Program-made: the position numbers and the translations under genes | DNA from: Altererythrobacter sp. C41 | GTDB taxonomy: Bacteria > Pseudomonadota > Alphaproteobacteria > Sphingomonadales > Sphingomonadaceae | Assembly (NCBI RefSeq): GCF_016803135.1 | Contig: NZ_JAEVFE010000005.1 | Location: 62,001 to 126,000, forward strand | Direction of reading: 5' to 3' | DNA: 64,000 nucleotides | Part shown: positions 39,686 through 58,184 of the stretch, piece after piece | Layout: every line of letters starts with the position of its first letter | Position numbering within the stretch: position 1 is the stretch's first letter | The notes under the pieces: generated by a model | The model's input: only the letters and a program-made list of their open reading frames with translations | Databases searched by the model: none | Told to the model about the DNA's origin: nothing

Positions 39686-40822
39686 ATGGCCGCAGCGGTG
39701 GAGGGAGAGAGTCAATTGCCGGGCGCAACGCTATCCCGGATCGGCAAGAGCTTTGGCGCAGTCACGCTGTTCGACGGCCTGGACCTGTCGGTCGGTGACG
39801 GCGAGTTCGTCGTGCTCGTCGGCCCTTCCGGCTGCGGCAAGTCGACGCTGCTCCGGCTGATCGCAGGGCTCGACGGGCCGGACAGCGGCGAGATCCGCAT
39901 CGGCGCGCGGCGCGTCGATCGCTTGCCGCCGGGCGAGCGCAGCGTCGCCATGGTGTTCCAGTCCTATGCGCTCTATCCGCAGATGACGGTCGCGCAGAAC
40001 ATCGCCTTTCCGCTGCGCATGGCGGGGCGGCCGAAGCGCGAGCTGGACGAAAGCGTCCAGCGGACCTGCGAGCTTCTGGGGCTTGCCGAGCTGATGGATC
40101 GGCGGCCAGCCGAGCTGTCGGGCGGGCAGCGGCAGCGCGTCGCCATCGGCCGCGCGATCGTGCGTCAGCCCGACCTGTTCCTGTTCGACGAGCCCCTGTC
40201 GAACCTCGACGCCAATCTGCGCGCGCAGATGCGGCGCGAGTTCGCGGAGCTGCACGCGCGGCTGGGCGCCACGACGATCTACGTCACCCACGACCAGGCC
40301 GAGGCGATGGCGCTGGCCGACCGGATCGTGCTGATGCGCGACGGGCGGATCGAACAGCAGGGCACGCCCGAGGACCTCTATTGCCGCCCGGCAACGCTCT
40401 TCGCCGCAGAATTCTTCGGCCAGCCGCCGATCAACCGCTTGCCCGGTCGCATTGTCCGCGCCGATGCGCGAGGGACCGAAATCACGGTCGGTGACGGTGA
40501 GCGGATCGTGCTCGGGCCGCTTACCGGCGCAGGCCCTGTGCAGGACGATGTGGTGGTGGCGATCAGGCCCGAGGCACTGACGGCACGGCCGAATGGCGGC
40601 ACGATCGCGCTCGCCCCGCGCGCGGTCGCGTTCGTCGAATGGTTCGGCGGGGAGCGCCACGCGCGCCTTGGGGACGGCGATACTGCGCTGGTCTGGCGCA
40701 CCACCGGCGATCACCCGATTGCCGCAGGGGAGAGCATTGCGCTGCATGTCGCGCCCGAGAAGGTGCACGTCTTCGACGGCGAGGGACGAGCGGTTCCGCA
40801 TGCCGCATTGCCGAATTTGTGA
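39686..40822 (+). CDS. Sugar ABC transporter ATPase (UgpC/MsmK/MalK type)
   Basis: Drives uptake of a sugar or oligosaccharide with the permeases encoded at 43145 and 44044. 378 residues: Walker A GPSGCGKST (46-54), Q-loop FQSYALYPQMTV, signature LSGGQRQR (144-151), Walker B LFLFDEP (164-170), H-loop VTHDQ, then a C-terminal OB-fold domain (about 240-365) typical of MalK/UgpC. ATG 39686 is given; TTG 39716, ten bases after GGAGGG, is an attractive alternative that trims ten residues. A LacI operator lies at its stop, so it may have its own promoter. Confidence 0.92.
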   Translation: MAAAVEGESQLPGATLSRIGKSFGAVTLFDGLDLSVGDGEFVVLVGPSGCGKSTLLRLIAGLDGPDSGEIRIGARRVDRLPPGERSVAMVFQSYALYPQMTVAQNIAFPLRMAGRPKRELDESVQRTCELLGLAELMDRRPAELSGGQRQRVAIGRAIVRQPDLFLFDEPLSNLDANLRAQMRREFAELHARLGATTIYVTHDQAEAMALADRIVLMRDGRIEQQGTPEDLYCRPATLFAAEFFGQPPINRLPGRIVRADARGTEITVGDGERIVLGPLTGAGPVQDDVVVAIRPEALTARPNGGTIALAPRAVAFVEWFGGERHARLGDGDTALVWRTTGDHPIAAGESIALHVAPEKVHVFDGEGRAVPHAALPNL

Positions 40823-40833
40823 AAACGGTTACA
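40820..40833. promoter_or_regulatory. LacI-family operator candidate before lacI (site A)
   Basis: TGAAAACGGTTACA, an imperfect palindrome of the TGnAACCGGTTnCA class used by many LacI regulators. It overlaps the stop of the ABC ATPase gene and lies 21 bases before the lacI ATG. Its reverse complement differs from the site at 52633-52646 at one of 14 positions. Confidence 0.6.
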
Positions 40834-40854
40834 TTGACGCGGGAGAGGGAAGGC

Positions 40855-41895
40855 ATGGTCACGATTCGGGATGTTGCGCGGGAAGCCGGCGTTTCGATCG
40901 CCACCGTGTCCCGCGCGCTCAACGGGCACAGCAACGTCACCAAAGCGACCCGGGAGGCGATCGAGGCCGCGGCCAAGGCGCTCAACTTCGTGCCCCACAG
41001 CGGCGCGCGCAGCCTGACCAATCGCCAGACCGATACCATCGGCGTAATCCTGCCCGACCTGTTCGGCGAGTTCTTCTCCGAAGTCATCCGCGGGATCGAC
41101 AAGATCGCCCACGGTGCGGGCAAGCACCTGCTGCTCGGCAACATGCACGGCAGCTCGCACGAGACGACCAACGCGATCCGCTCGATGCGGGGGCGGGTCG
41201 ACGGGTTGCTGCTGATGCCGCCCGACTCCACCGCCGAGCTGCTGTCGGACCACCTCGACGTCAACATGCCGACCGTCCTGCTCAACGCGCAGGCGGACGG
41301 CAGCGACGTGCCCTTCGTCGCGGTCGACAACTATCACGGCGCACGGACGATCACCGAGCATCTGATCGCGCGCGGGCGCAGGCGGATCGTCCATATCTCG
41401 GGGCCCAAGCACAACCGCGATGCGCGCGAGCGCCTGCGAGGCTTCACGGACGCGATGCGGGATGGTCTGGGTGAGAGGGCCCCGGTAATCCTGCCCGGCG
41501 ATTTCACGGAGAGCGCGGGCCTGGAAGCAGCCCGCCTGCTGCTCGCCGGACAAGTGCCCGCCGATGCGGTGTTCGCGTCCAACGACGTGATGGCGGTCGG
41601 CCTCATGTCGGTGCTCGAGGAGGCCGGCGTCGCGGTCGGCGTGGACACACTCGTCGCCGGCTTCGACGACATCCCGCTCGCGCGCCATGTGAGCCCGAAG
41701 CTGACCACGATGCAGTCGAACATGGCGCAGCTCGGCTCGACAGCGGCGATGCTGCTGCTGCGGATGCTGCGCGGGGAAGAGCTCGGCCGGGAGCATGGCG
41801 TCGTCCTTTCACCCCAGTTGGCCGCGCGCGGATCGACCGGAGCAGAATCGCACGACGGCGCGACCATTGCGGGCGCGCCCGCCGACGTGGCCTGA
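40855..41895 (+). CDS. LacI-family transcription regulator
   Basis: 346 residues: helix-turn-helix and hinge at the N-terminus (2-60, TIRDVAREAGVSIATVSRALNG), then a periplasmic-binding-protein-like sugar domain (about 62-335). It probably represses transport and glycosidase genes until a sugar binds. ATG 40855 has GGGAAGG upstream; earlier ATGs lie inside the ATPase gene. The stop overlaps the next start (TGATG). Operator candidates before this gene and at 52633 and 56830 suggest that it controls itself and the island. Confidence 0.92.
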   Translation: MVTIRDVAREAGVSIATVSRALNGHSNVTKATREAIEAAAKALNFVPHSGARSLTNRQTDTIGVILPDLFGEFFSEVIRGIDKIAHGAGKHLLLGNMHGSSHETTNAIRSMRGRVDGLLLMPPDSTAELLSDHLDVNMPTVLLNAQADGSDVPFVAVDNYHGARTITEHLIARGRRRIVHISGPKHNRDARERLRGFTDAMRDGLGERAPVILPGDFTESAGLEAARLLLAGQVPADAVFASNDVMAVGLMSVLEEAGVAVGVDTLVAGFDDIPLARHVSPKLTTMQSNMAQLGSTAAMLLLRMLRGEELGREHGVVLSPQLAARGSTGAESHDGATIAGAPADVA

Positions 41896-43148
41896 TGACG
41901 AGCGCCCTCTCGCGGCGCGCGGTTCTCGCGGCGGGGCTTGCAGGATCCGCCGCGTTCGCGCTGGGGGGCTGCCGCAGCGAGGGCGGACTGACCTTCTGGG
42001 CCATCGGCAACGAGGCGGCCGCCCTCCCCGCCTTCCTTCCCGACCTCGGCCTCGGCGGGGTCGAGGTGCAACCCCTGCCGTGGTCCGGAGCACATCAGAA
42101 GCTGCTGACCGGGTACGTCGGCCAGTCGCTGCCCGACCTGGCGCAAGTCGGCAATAGCTGGTTGGCCGAGCTCGCGGCACTGGGCGCAATCGATCCGGTG
42201 CCAGCCGACCTCGACCTCGCCGAAGACCAGTTCGGCGCGGTGCTCGCAAGCAACCGCATCGGCGGCCGGCTGATGGCGGCGCCATGGTATGTCGATACGC
42301 GCGTCCAGTTCTACCGCACGGATCTGTTCGCCCGGGCGGGCTACGGCTCGCCGCCGCTGGATTGGGACGAATGGAAGGCGGCGCTTCACCGCATTCGCGC
42401 CCAACGCGGGAGCGAGACCTACGGCGTACTCCTGCCGCTCGAAGAGTTCGAACACCTGCAGACGCTGGCGCTGTCCGCCGGCGCGACGTTCCTGCGGGAA
42501 AATCGCACGCGCGGCGCTTTCTCCGCGCCCGAGTTCGTCGAGGGCCTCGCCTTCTACAAGTCGTTGTTCGACGAGGGGCTGGCGCCGATCGTCACCGGCG
42601 CGCAGATCGCCAACCGCTGGGTAGAGTTCGCCCGCGGTTGGTTCGCGGTCTATCCGGCGGGCCCGTGGATGATCGAGGAGATGCGCAGGCGCCTGCCGGC
42701 CGCAATGCAGGACCTGTGGAGCACTGCGCCGCATCCGGGCCCCGGCGGCGCCGGTGCCGCCGCACCGGGGGGATCGAGCCTCGTCGTATTCAGCCGCGGT
42801 GAGCGCAAGCCGGAAGCCTGGGATGCCGTGCGCCGCCTGCTCGAGCCCGGAGCGCAGCTTGCGCTGCACCGGACGACCGGCGACCTGCCGGCACGGCGCT
42901 CGGTCTGGCGCGAGGCCGAGCTTGCGGGCGACCGCGTGATTTCGCCGTTCGCGCGCCAGCTCGAGCTCGCCCGTCCGCTGCCCAAGGTTCCCGAGTGGGA
43001 GCGCGTCGTTACCGCCATGCAGGTCGTCGCCGATCGTATGGTGCGCGGCGAATACACCGTACGCGGCGCGGCTGCCGAAATGGACCGGAGGGTCGACGAG
43101 ATCCTCACCAAGCGTCGCTGGATGATGGGAAAGGGGCGTCTTCCATGA
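41895..43148 (+). CDS. Sugar ABC transporter substrate-binding lipoprotein
   Basis: 417 residues, family 1 extracellular solute-binding protein (MalE/UgpB cluster). The lipobox ALGGC (Cys about 26) anchors it in the membrane. [24 protein letters not shown] and the later [22 protein letters not shown] are typical of the fold; the ligand site is rich in Trp and Tyr, as expected for sugar. Start ATG 41895 overlaps the lacI stop by one base; the end overlaps the next gene (ATGA). Ligand is unknown; a beta-gluco-oligosaccharide is my inference from the context. Confidence 0.9.
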
Positions 43149-44047
43149 GCGGCGCCGGAATCAGGGCGGAGCGGCGAGCCGGGTGGCTGTTCAGCGCCCC
43201 GGCGCTGCTCGCAATCGCGCTGTTCTTCATCCTGCCGACGATCGCTTCGCTCGCATTGAGCCTGACCGATTTCGACATCTATGCGCTTGCCGACATTCGC
43301 AACCTGCGCTTCGTCGGCTTCGACAACTACGCCGCCTTGCTTGCCGATCCGCTGTTCTGGGCTGCGCTCCACAACACGCTTTGGTTCGTCTTGCTCGGTG
43401 TTCCCCTGGTGGTGGTCGTTTCGCTCGGCGCGGCGATCCTGGTCAACGAGCGCATGGTCGCCTGGCGGCCGGTGTGGCGGGTGGCGTTTTTCGCACCCTA
43501 CGTCGCGACGCTCGTGGCGGCAGCGATGGTGTGGAAATATCTGCTCCACACGCGCTACGGCCTCGTGAACTACGCGCTTGGCGCCCTGGGACTGCCGAGG
43601 GTCGACTGGCTCGGCGATCCGCGCTGGGCGATCCCGGCGATCACGCTGTTCGTCGTCTGGAAGAGCTTCGGCTATGCCATGCTGATCTTCCTCGCCGCAC
43701 TCCAGACCGTGCCGCGCGAACTGGACGAGGCGGCGCGGATCGACGGCGCAGGATGGTGGGCCCGGCTGCGCCATGTCACGCTGCCCGCCATCGCCCCCGC
43801 GACCGGCCTCGTCGCGATCCTCACGATAATCGCCATGTTCCAGCTCTTCGCCGAGCCTTACGTGATGACCGAGGGCGGCCCCGCGCAATCGACGATCACC
43901 GTGCTCTATCTGATGTTCGAGGAAGGCTTCCAGTGGTGGAACCTCGGGACCGGCGCGGCGGTCGCGGTCGTGCTGTTCGCATGTATCCTCGCCGCGGCGG
44001 TTCTGCCGGCGCTCGCGATGCGGCTGCTCGGGGTGCGCAAGGCATGA
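43145..44047 (+). CDS. Sugar ABC transporter permease, MalF type
   Basis: 300 residues with six predicted membrane segments. The EAA loop that docks the ATPase is [21 protein letters not shown] (about 195-215). [23 protein letters not shown] is typical of the N-terminal half. Start ATG 43145 overlaps the preceding stop (ATGA), and its own stop overlaps the second permease in the same way. Confidence 0.93.
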
Positions 44048-44856
44048 TCGCGCGGCGCGCCCTGACCGCGCTCGCCGCCCTCTTCGCGGCGATCACGCTC
44101 GCGCCGCTGTTGTGGATGGTCTCGGTCAGTCTGATGCAGCCGGGGGAAGCCGGTCAGTTCCCGCCGCCGCTGATCCCCGTCGATCCGACACTCGCCAATT
44201 ATCGGGAGCTGTTCGCCGCGCAGGGCATGGGCGGCTTCCTGCTCAACAGCCTGCTCGTCTCCACTCTAGCGACATTGCTCGCACTGCTGTTCACCCTCCC
44301 TGCCGGCTACGCCTTCGCCAAATTGCGATTTCCGGGACAGGCGGCCACCGTGCAAACCCTGCTCGCGCTGCTCTTGATCCCGGGTCAGATCGGCATGCTG
44401 CCGCTGTTCCTCGAACTCAAGGCGCTCGGGCTGGTCAACTCATACGCCGGCGTCCTCGTCCCCTGGCTGGCGGGGATCGTCGGGATCTTCCTGGTGCGAC
44501 AATATGCGCTCTCGATCCCCGACGAACTGCTGGAGGCGGCGCGGATAGACGGCGCGAGCGAGTGGGAGGTGTTCCGCCACGTCGTGTTGCCGATCCTCCG
44601 CCCGGCGATCGCGACGCTGGCGCTGTTCGTGTTCCTCGGGAGCTGGAACGACTTCATGTGGCCGCTGATCGTGCTGTCCGATCAGGACCTCTACACCCTG
44701 CCCGTCGCCCTCGCCTCGCTGGGGCGCGAGCGCGCGCAGGATATCGAATTGATGATGGCCGGCTCGGTGGTGACCACCGTGCCGGTGCTGCTGCTGTTCC
44801 TGGCGCTCCAGCGCCAGTTCATCGGCGAATTGCTTGCCGGGAGTGTCAAAGGATGA
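44044..44856 (+). CDS. Sugar ABC transporter permease, MalG type
   Basis: 270 residues with six predicted membrane segments, EAA loop [21 protein letters not shown] (about 158-180) and the family [15 protein letters not shown]. Forms the channel with the MalF-type partner encoded just upstream. Joined by ATGA overlaps on both sides. Confidence 0.93.
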
Positions 44857-45599
44857 ATTGGGTTCGCTTGTTGCCGCTGGTCCTCTTGCTGGGGGCCTGC
44901 ACCGGTCATGCCGTGGCGGCGACACCGCCGCCTCCGATAGAAGCCGGGCAGCACCCGCAGCCGGCGGTCGAGGACAGCGGCTACGTCTATCAGCTTCACC
45001 TGCCGCCCGGCGTCGCGACGGCGGACGAGGACGCGCGCTGGCCGCTAATGATCTTCCTCCACGGTTCGGGCGAGCGCGGCAGCGACGTCGCCAAGGTCAA
45101 AGTCCACGGCCCGCCCAAGGTCGCCGACCGGCAGAAGGACTTCCCCTTCATTCTGATCTCCCCGCTGCTGCCGGCGGAAGAGGACTGGGACATCGCCAAG
45201 CTCGACGCGATCGCCGATCATGTGAGGGAAACGCTGCCGGTCGATCCGGCGCGTGTCTATCTCACCGGCCTCAGCCGCGGCGGCCATGCGACCTGGCGCT
45301 GGGCGGCCGCGGAGCCCGACCGCTTCGCCGCCATCGCCCCCGTCGCCGGGCGCGGCGATCCGGCGACCGCCTGCGCGCTGGTCGACACGCCCGTATGGGC
45401 CCTCCACGGCGACCGTGACGATGTCGTGACGCCGGAGGGCAGCTTTGCCATGTCGCGCGCGATCCGCGCCTGCGGCGGGCACCAGAGCCGCCTGACGATC
45501 TACCCCGATCTCGGCCACAACGCATGGGATCCTGCCTACGACGACCCCGCGCTTTACTTGTGGCTGCTGTCCCATCGCCTCGACGAGCAGGGCCAATGA
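44853..45599 (+). CDS. Esterase-like alpha/beta hydrolase lipoprotein
   Basis: 248 residues. Lipobox LLGAC (Cys about 16) predicts envelope location. The oxyanion region FLHGSGERG (69-76), nucleophile Ser141 in GLSRGG, an acid near GDRDD (187-190) and His222 in [11 protein letters not shown] form a normal triad. Related proteins are esterases acting on sugar acyl groups or polymer esters. In this operon between permeases and a GH1 enzyme it may remove acyl substituents from the glycan before uptake; that is inference. ATGA overlaps on both sides. Confidence 0.82.
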
Positions 45600-46948
45600 G
45601 CGGCTTTCCCGATGATTTCCTCTGGGGCGCGGCAACCGCCGCCTATCAGGTCGAGGGCTCCCCTCTGGCTGATGGCGCGGGCACCAGCATCTGGCACCGC
45701 TTCACTCATGACCCGCGCCTGATGATCGCGACCGGCGACACCGGCGACGTGGCCTGCGACCACTACAATCGCATGGAAAGCGACGTGGAGCTGATGAAGC
45801 AACTCGGGTTGCAGGCCTATCGCTTCAGCGTTTCGTGGAGCCGCGTTCTGCCCGAAGGCACCGGCCGGGTGAACGAGGCCGGGCTCGACTTCTACCGCCG
45901 TCTCGTCGACCGCCTGCTCGAAGCTGGGATCGAGCCCTTGGCGACCCTCTACCACTGGGACCTGCCGGCCGCGCTCGACGACCGGGGCGGCTGGCTCAAC
46001 CGCGAGAGCGCGGAATGGTTCGCAGAATATGCCGGCGTCATGTTCCGGGCGCTCGACGGCAAAGTGAAGAAGTGGGCCACGCTCAACGAGCCGTGGGTGG
46101 TGGCCGATGGAGGCTACCTCAACGGCGTGCTCGCGCCCGGCCACCGCAGCATCTTCGAATGCGCCATTGTCAGCCGCAACCTGATGCGCGCGCACGGCCG
46201 CGCGGTGCAGACCTACCGCGAATGCGGGGCGCACGAGGTCGGGCTGGTCATCAATATCGAGCCCAAATACCCGGCCAGCGACAGCCCCGAGGACCTCGCC
46301 GCCACGGCGCGTGCCGATGCTTATATGAACCGCCAGTATTTCGACCCCGCGCTGCTCGGCACCTGCCCGCCGGAGCTGCCGGTGATCTACGGCGAGGCGT
46401 GGGAGGACTGGTCGGCCGAGGACCTGGCGCTGTGCTGCCAGCCGGTCGATTTCGTCGGCATCAACTACTACACCCGCAGCGTCGTGCGCGCGTCGGAAAC
46501 GGCCTGGCCGCTGTTCGCCGAACACGTCGTGCAGGAAGGCGCGCCGCATACCGAGACCGACTGGGAAGTCTTCCCCGAAGCGATGACCCGCACACTGCTC
46601 TGGTTCCGCGAACGCTACGGCGACCTGCCGGTCTACATCATGGAGAACGGCGCCGCCTTCTCCGATCCCGCGACCAGCGCCGCCGAGGGCATTCCCGACG
46701 ACGACCGCTGCCAGTATCTCGCCGAGCACATCGCCGCGGTGCGCGACGCGATCGCGGCAGGGGTGGACATTCGCGGCTACATGGTCTGGTCGCTGTTCGA
46801 CAATCTCGAGTGGGCGCTCGGCTATGCCAAGCGCTTCGGGATCGTCCATGTCGACTACGAAACGCTCGCGCGCACGCCCAAGCACAGCGCGCGGCTCTAC
46901 CGTCAGATCATCGCCAGCAACGGCGCCGAACTGGAGCACGCCGCATGA
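45596..46948 (+). CDS. GH1 beta-glucosidase (cytoplasmic)
   Basis: 450 residues, family GH1 with acid/base Glu165 in TLNEP and nucleophile Glu350 in YIMENGA. It also has FLWGAATAAYQVEG at the N-terminus and GYMVWSLFDNLEWALGY near the C-terminus, which form the glucose pocket. No signal peptide, so it should cut short beta-glucosides after ABC uptake, releasing glucose. ATG 45596 overlaps the hydrolase stop (ATGA) and the end overlaps the phosphodiesterase-like gene (ATGA). Confidence 0.95.
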   Translation: MSGFPDDFLWGAATAAYQVEGSPLADGAGTSIWHRFTHDPRLMIATGDTGDVACDHYNRMESDVELMKQLGLQAYRFSVSWSRVLPEGTGRVNEAGLDFYRRLVDRLLEAGIEPLATLYHWDLPAALDDRGGWLNRESAEWFAEYAGVMFRALDGKVKKWATLNEPWVVADGGYLNGVLAPGHRSIFECAIVSRNLMRAHGRAVQTYRECGAHEVGLVINIEPKYPASDSPEDLAATARADAYMNRQYFDPALLGTCPPELPVIYGEAWEDWSAEDLALCCQPVDFVGINYYTRSVVRASETAWPLFAEHVVQEGAPHTETDWEVFPEAMTRTLLWFRERYGDLPVYIMENGAAFSDPATSAAEGIPDDDRCQYLAEHIAAVRDAIAAGVDIRGYMVWSLFDNLEWALGYAKRFGIVHVDYETLARTPKHSARLYRQIIASNGAELEHAA

Positions 46949-47808
46949 AATACCTCCTCTCCCTCCTCGCGACCGTTCTGCTCGCCGCCTGCGCGCATGT
47001 GCCGGCGCAATCCGCCGATAGCGCGCCGATCCGGGCAATGACGTTCAACATCAGGCTCGACGTCGCTTCGGATGGCGAGAACGCCTGGCCGCACCGCAAG
47101 GAGATGGTCGAAGCCGTCATCAAGCACGAGAATCCCGACCTGCTCGGCATGCAGGAGGTCCTGCTGCACCAGAAGCAGTATCTCGAAGCCGAACTGACGG
47201 ATTACACATTCGTGGGCGTCGGGCGCGACGACGGAGCAGAGGCCGGCGAGTTCTCCCCGCTGGGCTGGCGCAACGATCGCTTCGCGGTGGTGGACTCGGG
47301 CACGTTCTGGCTCTCGCCAACGCCAGAGGTGGCCGGCAGCAAGGGCTGGGACGCCGCCCTCCCCCGCATCGCCACCTGGGCCGTCCTGCGCGACAGGAGC
47401 AGCGGCGAGACGATCCGTGTCCTCAATACCCATTTCGATCACGTCGGCACGGCTGCCCGCGCCAATGCCGCGCTGATGATCGCCGAATGGGTCGCCGACG
47501 GCGGGGCGCCCGCGATCGTCATGGGGGACTTCAACGTCAAGCCGGATAGCGAACCTTATCAGGTCCTTGCGGACACCGCGCAGAGCGGCCTTTCCGACAC
47601 TCGCACGATCAGCGCCCTCCCGCCCTACGGACCGCCCGGCACCTTCACCGGCTTCGACATCATGGCCGCAGCCGAAGCGCCGATCGATCACATCTTCGCA
47701 ACCGGCGACTTTTCAGTGAACCGTTATGCGGTCGTGACGCAGCACTGGGAGGGCCGCCTGCCCTCCGACCACTACCCGGTGGTCGCCGATATCAAACTGC
47801 GGCGGTGA
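46945..47808 (+). CDS. Endonuclease/exonuclease/phosphatase-fold lipoprotein
   Basis: 287 residues. Lipobox LLAAC (Cys about 16), then the metal-dependent phosphodiester hydrolase fold: MTFNIR (Asn35), GMQEVL (Glu71), NTHFDH (163), MGDFN (194-197) and SDHYPV (274-279), all expected active-site residues present. EEP members cut phosphodiesters in nucleic acids, inositides or lipids. Being a membrane-anchored last gene of a sugar operon, it could remove phosphodiester side groups from a glycan; that is inference. Start overlaps the GH1 stop (ATGA). Confidence 0.85.
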   Translation: MKYLLSLLATVLLAACAHVPAQSADSAPIRAMTFNIRLDVASDGENAWPHRKEMVEAVIKHENPDLLGMQEVLLHQKQYLEAELTDYTFVGVGRDDGAEAGEFSPLGWRNDRFAVVDSGTFWLSPTPEVAGSKGWDAALPRIATWAVLRDRSSGETIRVLNTHFDHVGTAARANAALMIAEWVADGGAPAIVMGDFNVKPDSEPYQVLADTAQSGLSDTRTISALPPYGPPGTFTGFDIMAAAEAPIDHIFATGDFSVNRYAVVTQHWEGRLPSDHYPVVADIKLRR

Positions 47809-47818
47809 GGTAGAGCGC

Positions 47819-47846
47819 CGTCATCCCGGCGAAAGCTGGGGTGACG
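47819..47846. repeat. GTCATCCC-type palindrome
   Basis: CGTCATCCCGGC-GAAA-GCTGGGGTGACG (stem with one wobble pair) in the 80-base gap between the convergent phosphodiesterase-like gene and the GH144-like gene. Same family as 12774 and 24166. It could also end transcripts. Confidence 0.65.
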
Positions 47847-49397: not shown

Positions 49398-49476
49398 CAT
49401 AACTCCCAAGAGTAGGATGGACGCCCGGTCAAGGGAGGAGGAGGGGAATGACCGAGCGCCCGAACAGTGTCGACGA

Positions 49477-52400
49477 TCAGAACGAGAAGCCGGCAGAGAA
49501 CTTGATCGTGCGGGGCGGCCCGTCTGTGCCGAAACTGCCAAGATTCCGCTCACCCGTCTCGGCATTGAAGCTGTTATAATTTCGATCGTTGAACAAGTTG
49601 ATCACGTCGGCTCGAACCCAGATTCTGGTATCGTCGGTGACAAACGGCAGATTGAGATACTTAGTGAGCGCGAGATCCATCTGACGATAGCCCCAACGAT
49701 CACCGTTTCCTTCGGTCTCCACGGCGATCACGTCACGCGACAATGGATCTCCCTCAACCGACACGAAGCTCGTCTGCCACTTCGGTGAGGAGATCTGGAA
49801 CTTGCCCGCCAGCACCATGTCCATCGGAAGATCAACGGTCCCGGCCATGACCAAGCGGTGCGTACGTACGCCCGCCGAATGCACGAAGGGGTAGTCTTCG
49901 ATCGACGGGAAATCGAGCGCGAAGACCTCGCCGAACGACCGGTTCTCCTCGGCGTCCGTATAAGTGTAGGTCGCGTCAAGGCTCCAGCGGGACGTCTCGG
50001 TGTAGCGCTTGGTCAGCTTCAGATAACCGGTGTTTGCGCGCGTCTCGAGGCCATTATCGCCAATGATGAGGTTACCGAAGGGGGAGGGCGCGAAGCCCCA
50101 TGGCGATGAAGGATTGCCACTGGGCGGGAAGAAGCTGCCATCCGGACGACGGTTGCCAAGCAGATATACGAAGCCGTCATGGCTATTGACGCGTGTGTAG
50201 CCCACTTCGAGGTCGAGCAGGTTGAACCGTCCACGCAAGCCAAGACTGAACTGGTCGGAGTACGGAACCTTCAGATCATTCTTGATGAAGCGCAGTTCGC
50301 GCCCCGTGCCAACTGGTACACTATCGATGAGCTGCTGACGCCCCTCCTCGGTCAAATAGATCGGATCCCACGCGATACAGGTAACGCCTGGCGTGCACGG
50401 CGAATCCGCATCGGCACCGATGAACTGGAAAGTCCTGCCGGCGAAGAGGCCCTGTGCCAGCTCCTGCTGAATGAAGTCGAACTGCGTACGGTCATACGAA
50501 CGGCCATAGCCGCCGAAGAGCACGAAGCGACTTTCGTCATCGAGCTCATAAGAAAACCCGAGCCGCGGCTGGAATGCGCCGGTGAATGCCTTCCGTTCAT
50601 TACCGGTCGAGATGTAGTCGTTGATGTCGTAGTTCGCGTTGTTCAGGTTCGGATAGTTCTCCGGAGACACGGCGGCGACCTGTTCAGGGTCGTGAACGTA
50701 ATCCAGGAACGCCGGCGTACGCTCATAATCCCAACGCACGCCGAGGTTGAGCGTCAGACGATCGGTGACTTCCCAATCATCCTGAGCGTAGATGCCGAAC
50801 TGGAAGTTCTTCGAGCTGATCCGCGGATCGGCATCCCCTACGGGCGCGCTGAACTGCAGGCGATAGGGGATCTGGTCGTTAAACGTCAGGCCACTGTCGG
50901 TCGGATCGTACGTGACCAGATAGCTGAATACGGGGTTCAGATTGTTACGCTGGTCCGAATTGAGACGAACCCATTTGGCCTTCACGCCGAACTTCAGCGT
51001 ATGGTTCGAGAAGCCTGTGTAGGTGAAGTCGTTGGAGACCTGCCAGCCCTTCTGCCCCTTGTTCTGGAAGTTGCTGCCGCCTCCGAAGCGCAGGATGTCC
51101 CCGCGACGAGTGGTGCCCGGCTCTTCTCCAGGCACTCGCGCAGTGAAGAGAGTCGTATTTCCGATCGTGAAGGGACGCGGGTTCCAGAACACGTCCTCGT
51201 AGGCGACCTTGAAGTCATTTACGAAGTTGTCACCGGTGTGCTCCCAGCGAGCCAGCCCGCGCCACTCCCGCACGTTCGTGATGCTCCGCGTATCGTAGGC
51301 GGCAATACCTCCATTGTACTGCTCGCCGTACTCGTCGCGGAACTTCACCGATACATCGAATATGTCTCGGCTGGTCGGAGAGAAGGTCAATTTTCCGAAG
51401 TAGAGATCTTCGTTGAACTCTTGATTCCGTGCACCGAAGTATCCCTGATATTCTTCGGGAAAGAAGCTGACGGGCAGATCAAGACCGGGAACGGCGTCGC
51501 GAGGCTCGACGCGCCGCTTGCCCTCGTAAGTTGCGAAGAAGTGCAGTACGTCCTTGATGATCGGACCGCCCAATGCACCGCCGAACTGCAAGTCCCGACT
51601 CTCTACCTTGCCGGGGTTATCACCGAAGATCTCGATCGGCCGCGCGTCACGCAGATCCTGGTTCGTAAAATCGACGAACCCCTGACCTTCGAATTCGTTG
51701 GTGCCCGACTTGGTCACGGCCGTGATTGCGACCGAACTGACCTGATCGAACTCGGCCTTGTAGTTGGAGCTGATCACGCGATACTCACCGATGGCGAGCT
51801 GCGGGAACGGATTGCCCTGGGTCGAATCCTGGCCGGTGACACCGTTCTTGAGGACATAGTCCTTCTGTCCGACGCCATCGATGAAGACGTTGACGGTACT
51901 GCTGTTTTGCGCGCCACCCTGCAGCCGGCTGTCGCCATTGGCTCCGGTGATGAACTGCACACCCGGCGCAAGATCGGCAAAGGCCAGGAAGTTGCGGTTG
52001 TTCTGCGGAAGCTGCTCGATCAGTCGCTGGGTGATGTTAACACCGACTTCGCCGCCCTCCATCGTGCGGATGCGATTCGCCGTGACAATGATCTCGCCCC
52101 CCTCGCCTGCGTCGGGAAGCTCTTCACCCGTGGCGGTGGGTGCGGCCTGGGGCGCGGACAGGTCGAAATCCAAAACTGCGTTTTGCGCGACGCGCAGCGT
52201 GAACTGATCGGTGCTTCGCACTCCGTCAGCGGTAGTGATTTCCAGACGATAGTTGCCGGGCCGCAGCGAGGCAAAAGTGTAGCCGCCCCCCGCATCGACC
52301 ACGGCGGTGCGACGAATGCCGGTGTCGACCTCGATAGCTGCGACCTGGCTAACCCCCTCAGCACCGGTGATCGTGCCACGCAAAGACGCGTTCACCTGCT

Positions 52401-52527
52401 GCGCATGCGCCGGTGCGACCATGGCGAGCGACAGCGCGCCGCCGGCAACGCCGAGAGCGAGCGCCGCGGCCAGCTTGCGGGCGAAGCGGGGGTTGGCGCG
52501 AACGGTGTGGGATTGGGTATGCGACAT
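49477..52527 (-). CDS. TonB-dependent receptor with carboxypeptidase-regulatory-like N-terminal domain
   Basis: Energy-coupled outer-membrane importer, probably for the island's glycan. 1016 residues: signal peptide (about 1-42, ending APAHA); a carboxypeptidase-regulatory-like domain (about 45-130, VSQVAAIEVDTGIRRTAVVDAGGGYTFASLRPGNY); a plug with QLPQNNRNFLAFADLAPGVQF; and a beta barrel ending in aromatic GFSF. This is the Oar-like layout; no SusD partner is present. ATG 52527 has GGGGAG upstream. Base composition is visibly less GC-rich than neighbours (30 of 60 bases in 51421-51480). Confidence 0.92.
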   Translation of the reverse strand: MSHTQSHTVRANPRFARKLAAALALGVAGGALSLAMVAPAHAQQVNASLRGTITGAEGVSQVAAIEVDTGIRRTAVVDAGGGYTFASLRPGNYRLEITTADGVRSTDQFTLRVAQNAVLDFDLSAPQAAPTATGEELPDAGEGGEIIVTANRIRTMEGGEVGVNITQRLIEQLPQNNRNFLAFADLAPGVQFITGANGDSRLQGGAQNSSTVNVFIDGVGQKDYVLKNGVTGQDSTQGNPFPQLAIGEYRVISSNYKAEFDQVSSVAITAVTKSGTNEFEGQGFVDFTNQDLRDARPIEIFGDNPGKVESRDLQFGGALGGPIIKDVLHFFATYEGKRRVEPRDAVPGLDLPVSFFPEEYQGYFGARNQEFNEDLYFGKLTFSPTSRDIFDVSVKFRDEYGEQYNGGIAAYDTRSITNVREWRGLARWEHTGDNFVNDFKVAYEDVFWNPRPFTIGNTTLFTARVPGEEPGTTRRGDILRFGGGSNFQNKGQKGWQVSNDFTYTGFSNHTLKFGVKAKWVRLNSDQRNNLNPVFSYLVTYDPTDSGLTFNDQIPYRLQFSAPVGDADPRISSKNFQFGIYAQDDWEVTDRLTLNLGVRWDYERTPAFLDYVHDPEQVAAVSPENYPNLNNANYDINDYISTGNERKAFTGAFQPRLGFSYELDDESRFVLFGGYGRSYDRTQFDFIQQELAQGLFAGRTFQFIGADADSPCTPGVTCIAWDPIYLTEEGRQQLIDSVPVGTGRELRFIKNDLKVPYSDQFSLGLRGRFNLLDLEVGYTRVNSHDGFVYLLGNRRPDGSFFPPSGNPSSPWGFAPSPFGNLIIGDNGLETRANTGYLKLTKRYTETSRWSLDATYTYTDAEENRSFGEVFALDFPSIEDYPFVHSAGVRTHRLVMAGTVDLPMDMVLAGKFQISSPKWQTSFVSVEGDPLSRDVIAVETEGNGDRWGYRQMDLALTKYLNLPFVTDDTRIWVRADVINLFNDRNYNSFNAETGERNLGSFGTDGPPRTIKFSAGFSF

Positions 52528-52631: not shown

Positions 52632-52661
52632 TTGTAACCGGTTTCATATCGCCTGTATAGC
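52632..52661 (+). promoter_or_regulatory. Candidate GH3 promoter overlapping the operator
   Basis: TTGTAA at 52632-52637 and TATAGC at 52656-52661, 18 bases apart, resemble -35 and -10 boxes pointing toward the GH3 gene. The -35 lies within operator site B, so a bound repressor would block it. Proposed from sequence alone. Confidence 0.35.
52633..52646. promoter_or_regulatory. LacI-family operator candidate between TonB receptor and GH3 (site B)
   Basis: TGTAACCGGTTTCA, a near-perfect palindrome with AACCGGTT core. It lies in the 211-base divergent gap, 105 bases before the receptor start and 92 before the GH3 start. Differs from the reverse complement of site A by one base. Confidence 0.65.
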
Positions 52662-52738: not shown

Positions 52739-55063
52739 ATGATCAAGACAGCCCGATTCCTGCTCGCCGGCGCCGCTGCGATGGCGCTCGCCGGGTGCGC
52801 AACGGCGCAGGCTCAGCCGGCCGCCCCGACCGCGTCCACAACCGCCGTGCCGATCACACAGGCCGAGCCCGAATGGGCGCGCCCCGATCCCGCGATGGAT
52901 GCGTTCCTCGACGAACTCATCGCGAAGATGACGCTGCAGGAGAAAGTCGGACAGCTCACCTTGCTGACGAGCGACTGGGAGTCGACCGGCCCCACGATGC
53001 GCGAAGGCTACAAGCAGGACATCGCGGCCGGCCGCGTCGGCTCGATCTTCAACGCCTACACCGCCAAGTACACGCGCGAGCTGCAGCAGATGGCGGTCGA
53101 GGGGACGCGGCTGGGGATCCCCCTGCTGTTCGGCTATGACGTAATCCACGGACATCGCACGATTTTCCCGATCTCGCTGGGCGAAGCCGCAAGCTGGGAC
53201 CTCGAGGCGATCGAGAAATCCGCCCGCGTTTCCGCGCAGGAAGCCTCCGCCGAGGGCCTCCACTGGACGTTCTCGCCAATGGTCGACATTGCGCGCGACG
53301 CGCGCTGGGGCCGCATTTCCGAAGGTGCGGGCGAGGACGTGTTCCTCGGCAGCGCGATCGCGCGGGCGCGCGTGCGCGGCTATCAGGGCGAGGATCTCGG
53401 CGCGGTCGACACCATTCTCGCGACCGCCAAGCACTTCGCCGCCTACGGCGCGGCACAGGCGGGCCGCGACTACCACACGGTCGACATCTCCGAACGCACC
53501 CTGCGCGACGTCTATCTGCCGCCGTTCAAGGCCGCGCTCGATGAAGGCGTCGCGACCTTCATGACCTCGTTCAACGAGTACGACGGCGTCCCGGCAAGCG
53601 GCAGCAAGTACCTTCTCACCGACGTCCTGCGCCACAAGTGGGGCTTCGACGGCTTCGTCGTAACCGATTACACGTCGATCAACGAGATGGTCCCGCACGG
53701 CTATTCCAAGGACCTTGCCCAGGCCGGCGAACAGGCGATCAACGCCGGCGTCGACATGGACATGCAGGGCGCGGTCTACATGGAGAACCTCGCCAAATCG
53801 GTCGAGGAAGGCCGTGTCGACATGGCGCGTATCGACCAGGCCGTTCGCAGCATCCTGGAAATGAAGTACCGCCTCGGCCTGTTCGAGGATCCCTACCGCT
53901 ATTCCGATGAGGCGCGGCAGAAAGCCACGCTCTACAAACCCGAGTTCCTGGAGGCCGCGCGCGACGTGGCGCGCAAGTCCATGGTCCTGCTGAAGAACGA
54001 GGGCGGCGTCCTGCCCCTCGCCGCGCAAGCGAAGTCGATCGCGCTGATCGGCCCCCTCGGCGACAGCAAGACCGACATGATCGGCAGTTGGTCGGCGGCA
54101 GGCGACCGCCAGACCCGTCCGGTCACCATCCTCGAAGGGCTGCAGGCGCGCGCAGGCGACGGCGTGACCGTCGAGTACGCCAAGGGCGCGAGCTATGCCT
54201 TCGAGGACGAAGGCAAGACCGATGGTTTCGCCGAAGCCCTCGCACTGGCCGAGAAGTCCGATGTCATAATCGCCGCCATGGGCGAGCGATGGGACATGAC
54301 CGGCGAGGCCGCCAGCCGCACCTCGCTCGACCTGCCCGGCAACCAGCGGGCCCTGCTCGAGAAGCTGGTCGCGACCGGCAAGCCGGTGGTGCTGGTCGTG
54401 CTGAGCGGGCGGCCAAACACGATCACCTGGGCGGACGAAAACGTGCCGGCGATCCTGCACGCCTGGTATCCGGGCACGCAGGGCGGCCATGCGGTCGCTG
54501 ACGTACTGTTCGGCGACTATAACCCTTCGGGCAAGCTGCCGGTGACTTTCCCCCGCACGGTCGGCCAGTCGCCGATCCACTACGACATGAAGAACACCGG
54601 CCGCCCGATCGAACTCGGCGCACCGGACGCGAAGTACGTCTCGCGCTATCTCAACACGCCCAACGACCCTCTCTATCGCTTCGGTTACGGCCTCAGCTAC
54701 ACGACGTTCGGCTACTCGCCGGTCACGCTCTCGGCCGCCTCGATGGGGCCGGACGGGTCGATCACCGCTAGCGCAACGATCACCAACACGGGCAGCCGCG
54801 CCGGTGAGGAAGTCGTGCAGCTCTATGTCCGCGACCTCGTAGGTTCAGTGACGCGGCCGGTGCAGGAGCTCGAGGGCTTCGAGAAGATCATGCTCCAGCC
54901 GGGCGAGGCGCGCACGGTCAGCTTCACGCTGCGGCCCGAGGATCTCGCCTTCACCCGTGCCGACATGAGCCACGGGTGGGAGCCGGGCGAGTTCCAGCTC
55001 TGGATCGCGCCTTCCTCCGGAGCGAAGGCGAGCACGCCGGTCACCTTCACGATCACGGAGTAG
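52739..55063 (+). CDS. GH3 beta-glucosidase lipoprotein (BglX-like)
   Basis: 774 residues. Lipobox ALAGC (Cys20). Three-part GH3 layout: N-terminal barrel (about 50-370) with the nucleophile Asp310 in GFVVTDYTSI and substrate-binding KHFAAYG; alpha/beta sandwich (about 395-600); C-terminal fibronectin-III-like domain (about 660-770). Probably removes glucose from non-reducing ends of beta-gluco-oligosaccharides in the periplasm or on the membrane. ATG 52739 is preceded by GGGGAG. Divergent from the TonB receptor; followed after five bases by the sulfatase. Confidence 0.94.
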   Translation: MIKTARFLLAGAAAMALAGCATAQAQPAAPTASTTAVPITQAEPEWARPDPAMDAFLDELIAKMTLQEKVGQLTLLTSDWESTGPTMREGYKQDIAAGRVGSIFNAYTAKYTRELQQMAVEGTRLGIPLLFGYDVIHGHRTIFPISLGEAASWDLEAIEKSARVSAQEASAEGLHWTFSPMVDIARDARWGRISEGAGEDVFLGSAIARARVRGYQGEDLGAVDTILATAKHFAAYGAAQAGRDYHTVDISERTLRDVYLPPFKAALDEGVATFMTSFNEYDGVPASGSKYLLTDVLRHKWGFDGFVVTDYTSINEMVPHGYSKDLAQAGEQAINAGVDMDMQGAVYMENLAKSVEEGRVDMARIDQAVRSILEMKYRLGLFEDPYRYSDEARQKATLYKPEFLEAARDVARKSMVLLKNEGGVLPLAAQAKSIALIGPLGDSKTDMIGSWSAAGDRQTRPVTILEGLQARAGDGVTVEYAKGASYAFEDEGKTDGFAEALALAEKSDVIIAAMGERWDMTGEAASRTSLDLPGNQRALLEKLVATGKPVVLVVLSGRPNTITWADENVPAILHAWYPGTQGGHAVADVLFGDYNPSGKLPVTFPRTVGQSPIHYDMKNTGRPIELGAPDAKYVSRYLNTPNDPLYRFGYGLSYTTFGYSPVTLSAASMGPDGSITASATITNTGSRAGEEVVQLYVRDLVGSVTRPVQELEGFEKIMLQPGEARTVSFTLRPEDLAFTRADMSHGWEPGEFQLWIAPSSGAKASTPVTFTITE

Positions 55064-55068
55064 GAACG

Positions 55069-56748
55069 ATGGGTCGATCCCGGATCGCTCTCGCCGCCGC
55101 GCTCTGCACGCTGGCGCTGCCCGCCTGCACCACACTGCCCGAGGATGCCCCGCGCCATGCGGCGGCACCTTCGGCGACGCCGCAGGACGAACGGCAGAGG
55201 CCGAACATCGTGTTCATCATGTCGGACGATCACGCCTATCAGGCGGTATCCGCCTATGGCGGCGAGATCGGCCGGTTGGCGCCGACCCCGAACATCGACC
55301 GAATTGCGCAGAACGGCGCGATCTTCCTCAACAGCTACGTCACGAACTCGCTGTGCGGCCCGAGCCGCGCAACCATGCTGACCGGCCGGTTCAGCCACAT
55401 GCACGGCTTCACCAAGAACGGTCAGAAGTTCGACAACTCGATGTGGAACTGGCCGCGGGCGCTGGGCCAGCAGGGGTATCAGACCGCGCTGTTCGGCAAG
55501 TGGCACCTCAACTATTCGCCCGAAGGCGCAGGCTTCGGCACCTGGAAGGTGCTCGACGATCAGGGCAAGTACTACAACCCCGACATCATCACGCCCGACG
55601 GGCGCAGCGTGGTCGAGGGTTATGCGACCGACCTCGTCACCGATTACAGCCTCGAGTGGCTGGAGGAGGAGCGCGATCCCGACAAGCCGTTCGCGATCCT
55701 GATCCACCACAAGGCGCCGCACCGCAACTTCATGCCCGCTATCCGGCACCTGCAGAAGTACCTGGGCACCGAATTCCCGGTGCCGACCAATTACTTCGAC
55801 CATTACGACGGCCGCCCCGCCGCCGCGGCGCAGGAAATGAACATCTACCGGGACATGTACGAGGGCCACGACCTTCACATGACCGAGGCGGCGGGATCGA
55901 GCGAACTGCGCTTCGACCGCTGGCCCGACGATTTCGCTCGCATGACGCCTGAGCAGCGCGCCGCGTGGGATGCGCGGCTGCAGGCGAACAACGATGCCAT
56001 GAACGAAGCTGATCTCCACGGCCGCGACCTCGCGCTGTGGAAGTACCAGCGCTACATGAATCAGTATCTCGCAACCGTCAGCGCCGTGGACGAGAGCGTC
56101 GGACGCGTGCTCGACTGGCTGGAACGGACAGGGCTCGATGAGAACACGATCGTCGTCTACACATCCGATCAGGGGTTCTATCTCGGCGAGCACGGCTGGT
56201 TCGACAAGCGCTTCATGTACGAGGAGTCGCTGCGCACGCCGCTGGTGATGCAGTACCCGGGCCACATTGCGCCGGGGACACGGGTGCAAGCGCCGGTGCA
56301 GAATGTCGATTACGCCCCGACCTTCCTCGACTTCGCCGGGTTGCCGATGCGCGACACGATCCAGGGACGCTCGCTGCGCGAAGTGGTCGACGACGGCGAG
56401 GCGCCCGCGGACTGGCGCGAGGACGTCTACTACCACTACTACGAATATCCGGGCTTCCACTCGGTCCGCGCGCACTATGGCGTGCGCACCGACCGCTACA
56501 AGCTGATGCGCTTCTACGGCGATATCAACGCGTGGGAGTTCTACGACCTGGAAACCGACCCGGGGGAGATGCACAACCGGATCGACGATCCGTCGATGCA
56601 GGGCGTGATCGCCGGGCTCAAGCGCAAGCTGGTGGACCTGCGCACGCAGTACGAGGACACCGACGGTCCTGCGGTCGACGACCCGTTGTCTACGGTCGCG
56701 AAGGGCCGACATGATGCAGAGGCGGCAGCGGGGCTGCATCACCACTGA
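55069..56748 (+). CDS. Sulfatase lipoprotein (S1 family)
   Basis: 559 residues. Lipobox LPAC (Cys20), metal-binding DDH (53-55), and the formylglycine motif CGPSR with Cys96, to be oxidised by a maturase not in this window. Other marks are ALFGKWHL, HKAPHRN and YTSDQGFYLGEHGWFDKRFMYEE. It belongs to the type that hydrolyses sulfate esters of sugars; related superfamily enzymes cut phosphodiesters. GGAG precedes ATG 55069, and the gene is only five bases after GH3, so the two are an operon. Substrate unknown. Confidence 0.92.
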   Translation: MGRSRIALAAALCTLALPACTTLPEDAPRHAAAPSATPQDERQRPNIVFIMSDDHAYQAVSAYGGEIGRLAPTPNIDRIAQNGAIFLNSYVTNSLCGPSRATMLTGRFSHMHGFTKNGQKFDNSMWNWPRALGQQGYQTALFGKWHLNYSPEGAGFGTWKVLDDQGKYYNPDIITPDGRSVVEGYATDLVTDYSLEWLEEERDPDKPFAILIHHKAPHRNFMPAIRHLQKYLGTEFPVPTNYFDHYDGRPAAAAQEMNIYRDMYEGHDLHMTEAAGSSELRFDRWPDDFARMTPEQRAAWDARLQANNDAMNEADLHGRDLALWKYQRYMNQYLATVSAVDESVGRVLDWLERTGLDENTIVVYTSDQGFYLGEHGWFDKRFMYEESLRTPLVMQYPGHIAPGTRVQAPVQNVDYAPTFLDFAGLPMRDTIQGRSLREVVDDGEAPADWREDVYYHYYEYPGFHSVRAHYGVRTDRYKLMRFYGDINAWEFYDLETDPGEMHNRIDDPSMQGVIAGLKRKLVDLRTQYEDTDGPAVDDPLSTVAKGRHDAEAAAGLHHH

Positions 56749-56829
56749 CCGCCGGCAACACGCGCCTACGTATGCAAATTGACGGGGTGCGGTTTCCGGG
56801 GATGAGTTGCGATGGAAGAGAATCGGCTG

Positions 56830-56843
56830 TGCAACTGATTACA
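56830..56843. promoter_or_regulatory. Weak LacI-type operator before the sugar symporter (site C)
   Basis: TGCAACTGATTACA shares 11 of 14 positions with the consensus TGTAACCGGTTACA. It lies 51 bases before ATG 56895 in the 146-base gap after the sulfatase. Less palindromic than sites A and B. Confidence 0.35.
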
Positions 56844-56894
56844 TGACCGCATAGGCGGTTCGGGCACGGCGATCGATTGGGAGGAATGCAAGGT

Positions 56895-58184
56895 ATGGCA
56901 ATCGCACCGGAAGTCTCGTCGAGCGCCGATCCGAATCCGTTGGAAGGCGACGGGCAGAACGTGAATGCGCCCGGTCTGCAATACTTCGTGTTCGGCCTGT
57001 TCTTCATCTTCGGCGGCATCACATCGCTCAACGACGTGATCATCCCGAAGCTGAAGGAGCTGTTTACGCTCAGCTATTTCGAAGCCTCGCTGGTGCAGGT
57101 CTGGTTCTTCATCGCCTACGCCGTCGTGGGCATTCCGGGCGCCAAGCTGATCAAGAAGATCGGCTACATGCGCGGCGCGGTCGCCGGACTGGTCACGATG
57201 ATCGCGGGCTGCCTGCTGTTCATTCCGGCGAGTCAGTCGGCGGTGTTCGCCTTCTTCCTCGTCGCCTACTTCGTACTCGCGACAGGCGTGGTGCTGGTGC
57301 AGATCGTCGCCAACCCGCTGATCAGCCTGCTCGGTCCGGCGAAGACGGCGCACAGTCGCCTGACTTTCGCGCAGGGTTTCAACTCGGTGGGCACCACGAT
57401 CTTCCCCTACTTCGGGTCGATCCTGATCCTCGGCAGCCTTGCGACCGTGACCGCGGCCGAGCTCTCGGGCGCGGAGCTCATCGCCTATCGGCAGGCCGAA
57501 TCACAGGCGATCGTCGACGGCTATCTCGGCCTCGCTGCGGCCATCGCGGTCGTCGCTTTCGTCGTCTGGCTGTTCCGTAACCGTCTCAAGGGGGAGCGGC
57601 ACGAGCAGACCAGCCTCGCCGAGGGTCTGGCGCTGCTGAAGCGCCCGCGCTTCGGCTACGGCGCGGCGTGCATCTTCCTTTACGTCGGCGCGGAAGTCGC
57701 GATCGGCAGTTTCATCGTCAACTACCTGATGCAGGCCGACGTGCTTGCCCTGCCGGAGCAGGAAGCGGGCAAGCTGATTTCGGTTTACTGGCTGGGGGCA
57801 CTGATCGGCCGCTTCATCGGATCGGGGCTGCTGCGCGTGATCAACCCGGGCCTGCTGCTCGCCACCTTCGCTAGCGGCGCGATCGCGCTGATCGCGATTT
57901 CGATGAGCACGACGGGCACCGTTTCGGGCTATTCGCTGCTCGCCGTCGGACTGATGAACTCGATCATGTTCCCGACGATCTTCACCCTCGCCTGCGAGAA
58001 GCTCGGCGCGCGCGCCGCGGACGGCTCCGGGATCATCAACGTCGCCATCGCCGGCGGCGCAGTCATCCCGGCGGTCTATGGCGCGCTGGCCGACGCGACG
58101 AGCCTGGCCGCGGCCCTCATTCTGCCCGCCATCTGCTATGCGATTATCGCCGGCTTCGGAATCTTCGCCCGCCGTCCGGCGTAA
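56895..58184 (+). CDS. FucP-type MFS sugar:H+ symporter
   Basis: 429 residues with 12 predicted membrane segments, of the glucose/galactose/fucose symporter group. FGLFFIFGGITSLNDVIIPKLKELF and LTFAQGFNSVGTTIFPYFGSILIL are typical; NSIMFPTIFTLACEKLG lies in the second half. Probably takes up the glucose released by the periplasmic GH3. I use ATG 56895, nine bases after GGGAGG; ATG 56886 lies too close to it. Possible operator upstream. Confidence 0.88.
   Translation: MAIAPEVSSSADPNPLEGDGQNVNAPGLQYFVFGLFFIFGGITSLNDVIIPKLKELFTLSYFEASLVQVWFFIAYAVVGIPGAKLIKKIGYMRGAVAGLVTMIAGCLLFIPASQSAVFAFFLVAYFVLATGVVLVQIVANPLISLLGPAKTAHSRLTFAQGFNSVGTTIFPYFGSILILGSLATVTAAELSGAELIAYRQAESQAIVDGYLGLAAAIAVVAFVVWLFRNRLKGERHEQTSLAEGLALLKRPRFGYGAACIFLYVGAEVAIGSFIVNYLMQADVLALPEQEAGKLISVYWLGALIGRFIGSGLLRVINPGLLLATFASGAIALIAISMSTTGTVSGYSLLAVGLMNSIMFPTIFTLACEKLGARAADGSGIINVAIAGGAVIPAVYGALADATSLAAALILPAICYAIIAGFGIFARRPA

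Follow-up and report, generated by a model that had tools for sequence, protein, structure and literature searches.

A candidate LacI-controlled locus for scavenging beta-1,2-glucans in Altererythrobacter sp. C41, with three possible side-group-removing enzymes

Genes and features of the locus

We analyzed a 64,000-nucleotide stretch of the 3.2 Mb genome of Altererythrobacter sp. C41 (contig C5, bases 62001-126000; hereafter the window) and characterized a locus at window positions 39686-58184 that may serve to scavenge beta-1,2-glucans. This locus holds 13 genes with intact reading frames, and a separate GC3-based gene call returned the same 13. It is flanked by chemotaxis genes on the left and by an HlyD/AcrB efflux pair on the right. 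An earlier note on this DNA had named a TonB receptor, a GH144-like endo-enzyme, GH3 and GH1 enzymes, a sugar ATP-binding cassette (ABC) transporter, a FucP-type symporter and three envelope lipoproteins, and had proposed that together they scavenge a decorated beta-1,2-glucan or another substituted beta-glucan; all of these genes were indeed found within the interval, intact and close-packed.

On the plus strand, the locus opens with an ABC transporter ATPase of the UgpC/MalK type (39686-40822; PF00005, PF08402; 400.1 bits to the UgpC model, under its cut-off of 432), followed by a LacI-family regulator (40855-41895, start per gene calls; PF00356 and PF13377, scanned on the longer frame 40639-41895) that the earlier note had not listed. 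Next come a solute-binding protein (SBP; 41895-43148; PF01547) with an RR signal and a lipobox-like Cys, ABC permease 1 (43145-44047; PF00528, scanned on the longer frame 42995-44047), ABC permease 2 (44044-44856; PF00528, scanned on the longer frame 43183-44856), an alpha/beta-hydrolase esterase (44853-45599), a GH1 beta-glucosidase (45596-46948; PF00232 504.4 bits; TIGR03356 574.7 bits, cut-off 478.5) in which no signal peptide was seen, and an EEP-fold (DNase I-like) protein (46945-47808; PF03372). From permease 1 through the EEP gene, each gene overlaps the preceding one by 4 bases.

Two genes lie on the minus strand: a predicted GH144 endo-beta-1,2-glucanase (47889-49400, start from the GC3-based call; PF10091 289.8 bits, cut-off 27) and a TonB-dependent receptor (TBDR) of the OMP_b-brl_4 type with an N-terminal CarboxypepD_reg domain (49477-52527; PF25183, PF00593, PF13620). 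Returning to the plus strand, a GH3 beta-glucosidase of the BglX type (52739-55063; NCBIfam BglX 843 bits, cut-off 666) is followed after 5 bases by an S1_11-like sulfatase of the Cys type (55069-56748; PF00884, PF16347) and then by a major facilitator superfamily (MFS) sugar transporter (56895-58184; PF07690). The type of the symporter is GluP (TIGR01272 above its cut-off; 248.5 against 202.55) and not FucP (221.6 against a cut-off of 280.4), a correction to the earlier note. The esterase (LGAC), the EEP protein (LAAC) and the sulfatase (LPAC) do have lipobox-like starts in a by-eye reading, but the count of such envelope hydrolases is five rather than three, as GH144 (LAAC) and GH3 (AGC) share this feature. 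An imperfect inverted repeat, GTCATCCCGGCGAAAGCTGGGGTGAC, lies at 47819-47846 between the converging ends of the EEP and GH144 genes and is perhaps a repeated element or a terminator. The G+C content is 0.61 at 48001-52000, in the TBDR area, and 0.65-0.70 in the other 4-kb steps.

Backbone specificity and a candidate LacI regulon

We compared the PF10091 protein with solved chains (E ≤ 0.01) and obtained eight matches. The top match, 8xul, is the Xanthomonas GH144 beta-1,2-glucanase XcSGL (XCC2207; 511 bits over 451 residues), the closest characterized glucanase; it is followed by 4gl3, 4qt9 and 3eu8 (putative glucoamylases), 5gzh and 5gzk (CpSGL), 5z06 and, last, 8xuk PgSGL3 (GH194; 22.5 bits). 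No GH162 or GH189 chain was among the matches at this threshold; GH189 domains are related to the SGL clan (PMC12102758). This clan is marked by E239, F286 and Y367 of XcSGL (PMC12102758), which correspond to E295, F343 and Y426 of the window protein (P0001) in an alignment read by hand. The E239 position is Q in the 8xul chain, taken here as a crystallized mutant. D212 of P0001 occupies the position of the general-base candidate (CpSGL E142), which is Asp in XcSGL and Glu in other chains. The closest solved relative and the clan-defining residues place the protein in GH144, as the earlier note had suspected, an assignment made on these grounds rather than from a tree with all clan families. 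XcSGL is active on beta-1,2-glucan, and its activity was undetected on CM-cellulose, barley glucan, glucomannan, xyloglucan, lichenan, laminarin and CM-curdlan (PMC12102758, Table 1).

The other sugar-handling proteins are consistent with this specificity. Solved relatives of the GH3 protein include 5xxl, which we take to be BT_3567 (757.9 bits), and Lin1840 of Listeria innocua (4zoa, 521.3 bits), with general beta-glucosidases among them. The best solved relative of the SBP is 3uor (324.6 bits) and the second is 5ysb, or Lin1841 (164.1 bits); the former is Xac-MalE of Xanthomonas citri, its specificity stated as unknown (PMC7676653), and the latter binds Sop3-5 (PMC12369401). Because of the likeness to XcSGL with its clan residues, the likeness of the SBP to Lin1841 and the GH3 protein passing the BglX model, the backbone substrate is very probably beta-1,2-glucan, and this part of the original proposal is well supported. 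Ugp-like scores raised the candidate of an ABC importer for glycerol phosphate, which we rejected: the UgpC, UgpA and UgpE models all scored under their cut-offs, and the best solved relatives of the SBP are listed as sugar binders.

The genome contains just two mismatch-free copies of a palindrome, TGNAANCGNTTNCA, and both are in the locus. The first, TGAAAACGGTTACA, lies at 40820-40833, 21 bases ahead of the lacI start; the second, TGTAACCGGTTTCA, lies at 52633-52646, between the TBDR and GH3 genes. A degenerate copy with one mismatch, TGCAACTGATTACA, is found at 56830-56843, 51 bases ahead of the MFS gene; the site before this gene is mismatch-free in the congener loci L012, L014, L021 and L022, and the window copy is probably a third operator.

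We then assembled 60 GH144-type loci and counted features in 48 related ones, leaving out six as short (L024, L035, L042, L068, L070, L080) and six as belonging to other groups (L073-L076, L078, L079); L026 and L054, which are not named to order, were kept. A stricter form of the palindrome, TGNAANCGGTTNCA, is present in the TBDR/GH3 region (on average 685 bases, widened by 160 on each side) of 47 of the 48 loci, the exception being L058. This figure is less biased than the information content of the aligned sites, to which the choice of pattern-bearing rows contributes. A further 33 TGNAANCGGTTNCA sites lie elsewhere in these loci, many of them at lacI or MFS gene starts and nine at GH97 genes, compared with an expectation of 0.25 sites over all 1.03 Mb (order-1 Markov control, 20 runs). 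As a control across the class and phylum, we examined 39 GH144-type loci, several of them from genomes that share a genus: a TGNAANCGNTTNCA site was found in 16 of 17 loci with a LacI homologue above 300 bits (not in L136) and in 0 of 22 without such a homologue. Since TGNAANCGNTTNCA is confined to the locus and the stricter form is retained near the TBDR and GH3 genes in all but one of the 48 related loci, we predict that the genes form one regulon with candidate shared LacI operators, likely repressed by the LacI protein encoded at 40855-41895. The control of the ABC ATPase is less clear, as its gene lies ahead of the lacI operator. BglR-type LacI regulators of beta-glucoside operons have been predicted in Caulobacterales (PMC4052901).

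Side-group enzymes and their conservation

Next, we characterized the three enzymes that might remove side groups. In the esterase, Ser141, Asp190 and His222 are invariant in 21 sequences and would form a typical catalytic triad by our own assignment; the nearest solved relatives, 4q82 (93.7 bits) and 3doh (79.4 bits), have no specific function. The EEP protein is closest to 3g6s (192.6 bits), 3mpr (166.2 bits) and 4c1r (165.9 bits). Its residues N35, E71, H163, D195, N197, D275 and H276 are invariant in 19 sequences and are of the catalytic type. The EEP protein shares fold family and catalytic-type residues with 4c1r, which is a mannosyl-6-phosphatase by its PDB name alone, whereas the closer relative 3g6s has no named function. 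A second EEP-esterase pair lies elsewhere in the genome (G000:C2:231093-232461; L165:9564-11307), where the two genes lie side by side, as they also do in G001, G003 and G004. Compared with the pair in the window, identity is 30% for EEP and 42% for the esterase, the latter over about 160 residues. The EEP and esterase proteins may work as a unit.

The sulfatase is closest to 9s03 (618.5 bits), 7p24 (522.9 bits; presumably BT3177) and the N-acetylglucosamine-6-sulfatase 5g2v (516.4 bits; which we take to be BT4656). The formylglycine and metal-site motifs of sulfatases are present (CGPSR, SDDH, GKWH, SDQG, WFDKR) and aligned with the solved relatives, and, as candidate parts of the S1_11 recognition triad, D-K-R and a late His-rich motif align with 5g2v. 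Members of the S1_11 subfamily recognize a gluco-configured sugar at O3 and O4 through a triad of His (O3) and Asp/Arg (O4), and about half of them lack the region that reads C2 (PMC10154612). The window protein looks like an S1_11-type 6-O-sulfatase and differs from the known enzymes, which act on 6-sulfated GlcNAc (PMC10154612); BT4656 is an S1_11 enzyme of the Ser type (PMC7897442), whereas this protein is Cys-type and its nearest chain, 9s03, is a putative sulfatase. Such a likeness matches neither phosphoglycerol nor acyl groups, the substituents that the earlier note had named. The genome contains FGE-type genes (PF03781, five matched stretches) and six other PF00884 genes; a 12-kb stretch at G000:C2:256626-268339 holds five sulfatase-type genes (PF00884) together with one of the FGE type. 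In view of the O3 and O4 recognition in S1_11, all three enzymes could act at C6 of glucose.

To count genes in the 48 related loci we used family HMMs with score limits that we set ourselves. GH3 was present in all 48 loci, LacI and TBDR in 45 each, the esterase and EEP in 41 each, the sulfatase in at least 32, the SBP, permeases and GH1 in 31 each, the ATPase in at least 24 and the window's MFS in 7; some loci end early, which makes the figures for the ATPase and the sulfatase minimum values. Both esterase and EEP were found in 37 loci, all three side-group enzymes in 26, at least one in 46 and none in 2. The locus occurs in many Sphingopyxis records (21 of 60 loci) and in several Erythrobacteraceae.

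Across genomes, with the own genome included each time, the GH144 gene was found in 10 of 59 near relatives (7/7 of the genus, 1/28 from other genera of the family and 2/24 from the rest of the order), in 5 of 385 class genomes and in 37 of 398 phylum genomes. Of the 41 class and phylum places outside the own genome, 40 were examined, in the 39 loci mentioned above, and the weakest (G478) was left out. Esterase matches (E 0.001) occurred in 25 of the 59 relatives and were near full length in 8, namely all seven genomes of the genus plus G056, with identities of at least 49%, while EEP orthologues (at least 71% identity) occurred in 6, all within the genus. These near-full-length esterase and EEP orthologues are all in GH144-bearing genomes. 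The neighborhood comparison, proposed earlier as a check, finds the GH144 gene throughout the genus and the gene order widely kept in related loci, which makes the locus more than a chance grouping.

The core of LacI, TBDR, GH144, SBP and permeases recurs without the three enzymes in other proteobacterial loci, where an esterase was found in L018, L070 and L131 and weakly in L073. Lysobacter, Rhodoferax and Burkholderiales loci (L073-L076, L078, L079) resemble the window in having consecutive genes for TBDR, GH144, SBP and two permeases, and four of the six (L073, L076, L078, L079) have a clear LacI gene close by. They are unlike it in that the ABC genes directly follow GH144 and that the stretch examined yielded no relative of GH3, the sulfatase or the EEP protein. 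In L076 (14235-17600), L073, L078 and L079 the permease genes are followed by one for a protein of about 1,100 residues; the one in L076 has F5/8 type C and six-hairpin domains. The esterase, EEP protein and sulfatase are thus mainly a sphingomonad add-on to a wider proteobacterial core. Earlier doubt about the novelty of the system was fair: the LacI/TonB receptor/GH144/ABC core is already recurrent in other Proteobacteria, and what is new is the LacI gene in the locus with its likely operator.

A scavenging model and its alternatives

Taking these results together, we consider it fairly probable that the locus is a LacI-controlled regulon for scavenging other bacteria's beta-1,2-glucans, extended mainly in sphingomonads by enzymes for side-group removal. 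The targets would be osmoregulated periplasmic and cyclic beta-1,2-glucans. We infer that the TonB receptor carries the glucan, or large pieces of it, across the outer membrane, and that the lipoproteins would clear acyl (esterase), phosphate-type (EEP) and sulfate-type (sulfatase) groups that block the chain. GH144 would cut the chain to sophoro-oligosaccharides, from which GH3 would release glucose outside the inner membrane for uptake by the GluP-type MFS transporter. Sophorose and short oligomers would enter the cytoplasm through the ABC importer and be fully broken down there by GH1, and LacI would repress from two operators, and probably a third before the MFS gene, until a breakdown sugar appears. 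In this scheme the gene content, the catalytic-type residues of GH144, the shared operator-like sites and the conservation in relatives are observations, and the transport steps, localization, LacI binding, inducer and substrates of the side-group enzymes are the parts supplied by interpretation. Membership of the three enzymes in the system is supported by overlapping operon genes, conservation in relatives and shared operators; their removal of side groups from beta-1,2-glucan is plausible. The original interpretation is accordingly upheld for the backbone and for the membership of these enzymes, while phosphoglycerol and acyl removal stays conjectural.

Parts of this model have parallels in described systems. 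The Listeria innocua cluster lin1839-1841 includes relatives of our SBP and GH3, but it has a GH94 phosphorylase, is Gram-positive and has no side-group enzyme mentioned in the available portion of its description (PMC12369401). Streptomyces griseus SGR_2422-2427 brings together an ABC importer, a GH1 beta-1,2-glucosidase, an SGL-clan glucanase and an esterase gene; its glucanase, however, is GH193, its esterase is reported to lack a signal peptide, and the paper contains no mention of a sulfatase (PMC12369401). Caulobacter EstG, an esterase acting on cyclic glucan, and BglX are, by description, a comparable esterase and GH3 pair in alphaproteobacterial periplasmic glucan metabolism, unlike our locus in that the accessible text names no uptake system (PMC11389396).

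Several points weigh against the scavenging model. Enzyme functions at the locus are predictions from sequence, activity on a glucan has been shown for no relative of the three side-group enzymes, and a sulfated beta-1,2-glucan is not known to us. In 16 of the 48 loci there is no sulfatase gene (in L054 the sequence ends there). The locus is patchy, as the single GH144 gene among 28 genomes from other genera of the family illustrates; the congener G005 lacks an EEP orthologue, and a sulfatase is absent from its locus, L023; and the GH144-bearing G030, G056 and G057, outside the genus, have no EEP orthologue, with G030 and G057 also lacking the esterase. Outside sphingomonads the add-on is rare, with a clear esterase in L070 only, and a weak one in L073, among named records. 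Finally, the operator pattern was derived from the two sites in the window before it was counted, and the 48 loci are related to one another, which makes the counts non-independent.

A simpler explanation, which we judge somewhat unlikely, is a plain regulon for beta-1,2-glucan and sophoro-oligosaccharides in which the esterase, EEP protein and sulfatase are merely co-located and have other substrates. It would suit the proteobacterial loci that have the LacI/TBDR/GH144/ABC core without these enzymes, the second EEP-esterase pair, which indicates that the pair can have another job, and the other PF00884 genes of the genome. The esterase and EEP genes, however, overlap the permease and GH1 genes in one operon, both persist in 11 of the 17 loci that have lost or lack SBP and GH1, and, as counted above, nearly all related loci have at least one of the three enzymes.

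An extension of the scavenging model arises from GH97 genes in related loci, found in 16 of them. Nine start well inside the locus, and an operator lies at or near the start in eight (L028, L030, L034, L057, L059, L060, L061, L064; not L066); the GH97 gene of L029, starting at the locus edge, also has one, and six others lie at the edge, incomplete upstream. In several operator-bearing loci an MFS gene points the opposite way from GH97, and one site may therefore act on both genes. By its solved relatives the L030 protein belongs to the alpha-glucosidase type (694.4 bits to 5hq4 and 450.6 to SusB, against about 200 to alpha-galactosidases), although the sole NCBIfam model it touched, under cut-off, is that of a retaining alpha-galactosidase. 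Xanthomonas campestris, Ralstonia solanacearum and Rhodobacter sphaeroides make beta-1,2-glucans closed by an alpha-1,6 bond (PMC11228985), and an operator-bearing GH97 alpha-glucosidase fits such glucans. It is possible, if doubtful, that the locus is dedicated to cyclic beta-1,2-glucans that are fully decorated and closed by an alpha-1,6 bond, a pathway in which the lipoproteins uncap C6 (an acyl ester, a phosphate-type and a sulfate-type group), GH144 opens the ring and the GH97 enzyme of Erythrobacteraceae removes the alpha-1,6 glucose. Against this, the one GH97 gene of the window genome lies elsewhere, without such an operator. Ten loci also carry a GH2 gene, mostly of about 730 aa, between EEP and GH144 (for example L025:11522-13714); these are closest to beta-glucuronidase/galactosidase chains and models, and the alpha-1,6-ring pathway does not explain them. 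If this pathway were true, either a natural 6-O-sulfated beta-1,2-glucan exists or an S1_11-type enzyme became a phosphoglycerol diesterase.

It is improbable that the locus instead acts on the strain's own periplasmic glucan, as the Caulobacter enzymes EstG and BglX, likewise alphaproteobacterial, might suggest (PMC11389396). With a TonB receptor and an ABC importer next to LacI-type operators, the locus looks built for taking up external material. OpgG/MdoG (PF04349) was not found in the genome, in a search limited to this family whose control matched E. coli; this is a weak point, as OpgH is the only opg homologue in Caulobacter (PMC11389396). A beta-1,3- or beta-1,4-glucan backbone (laminarin, cellulose oligomers) has very little to recommend it beyond the breadth of the GH1 and GH3 families, general beta-glucosidases being among the GH3 relatives, and we set it aside because domain profile scans found no endo-glucanase family among the 13 genes other than GH144, whose relative XcSGL showed no detected activity on such glucans.

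Very many Proteobacteria make periplasmic and cyclic beta-1,2-glucans, whose substituents include phosphoglycerol, phosphoethanolamine and succinyl (PMC11842490). Apart from EstG, we found no paper, among the open-licence ones listed, on enzymes that strip side groups from beta-1,2-glucans during breakdown. The locus offers three candidates for this role in a well-bounded regulon. If the scavenging model is correct, bacterial osmolyte glucans would be a food source for other bacteria.

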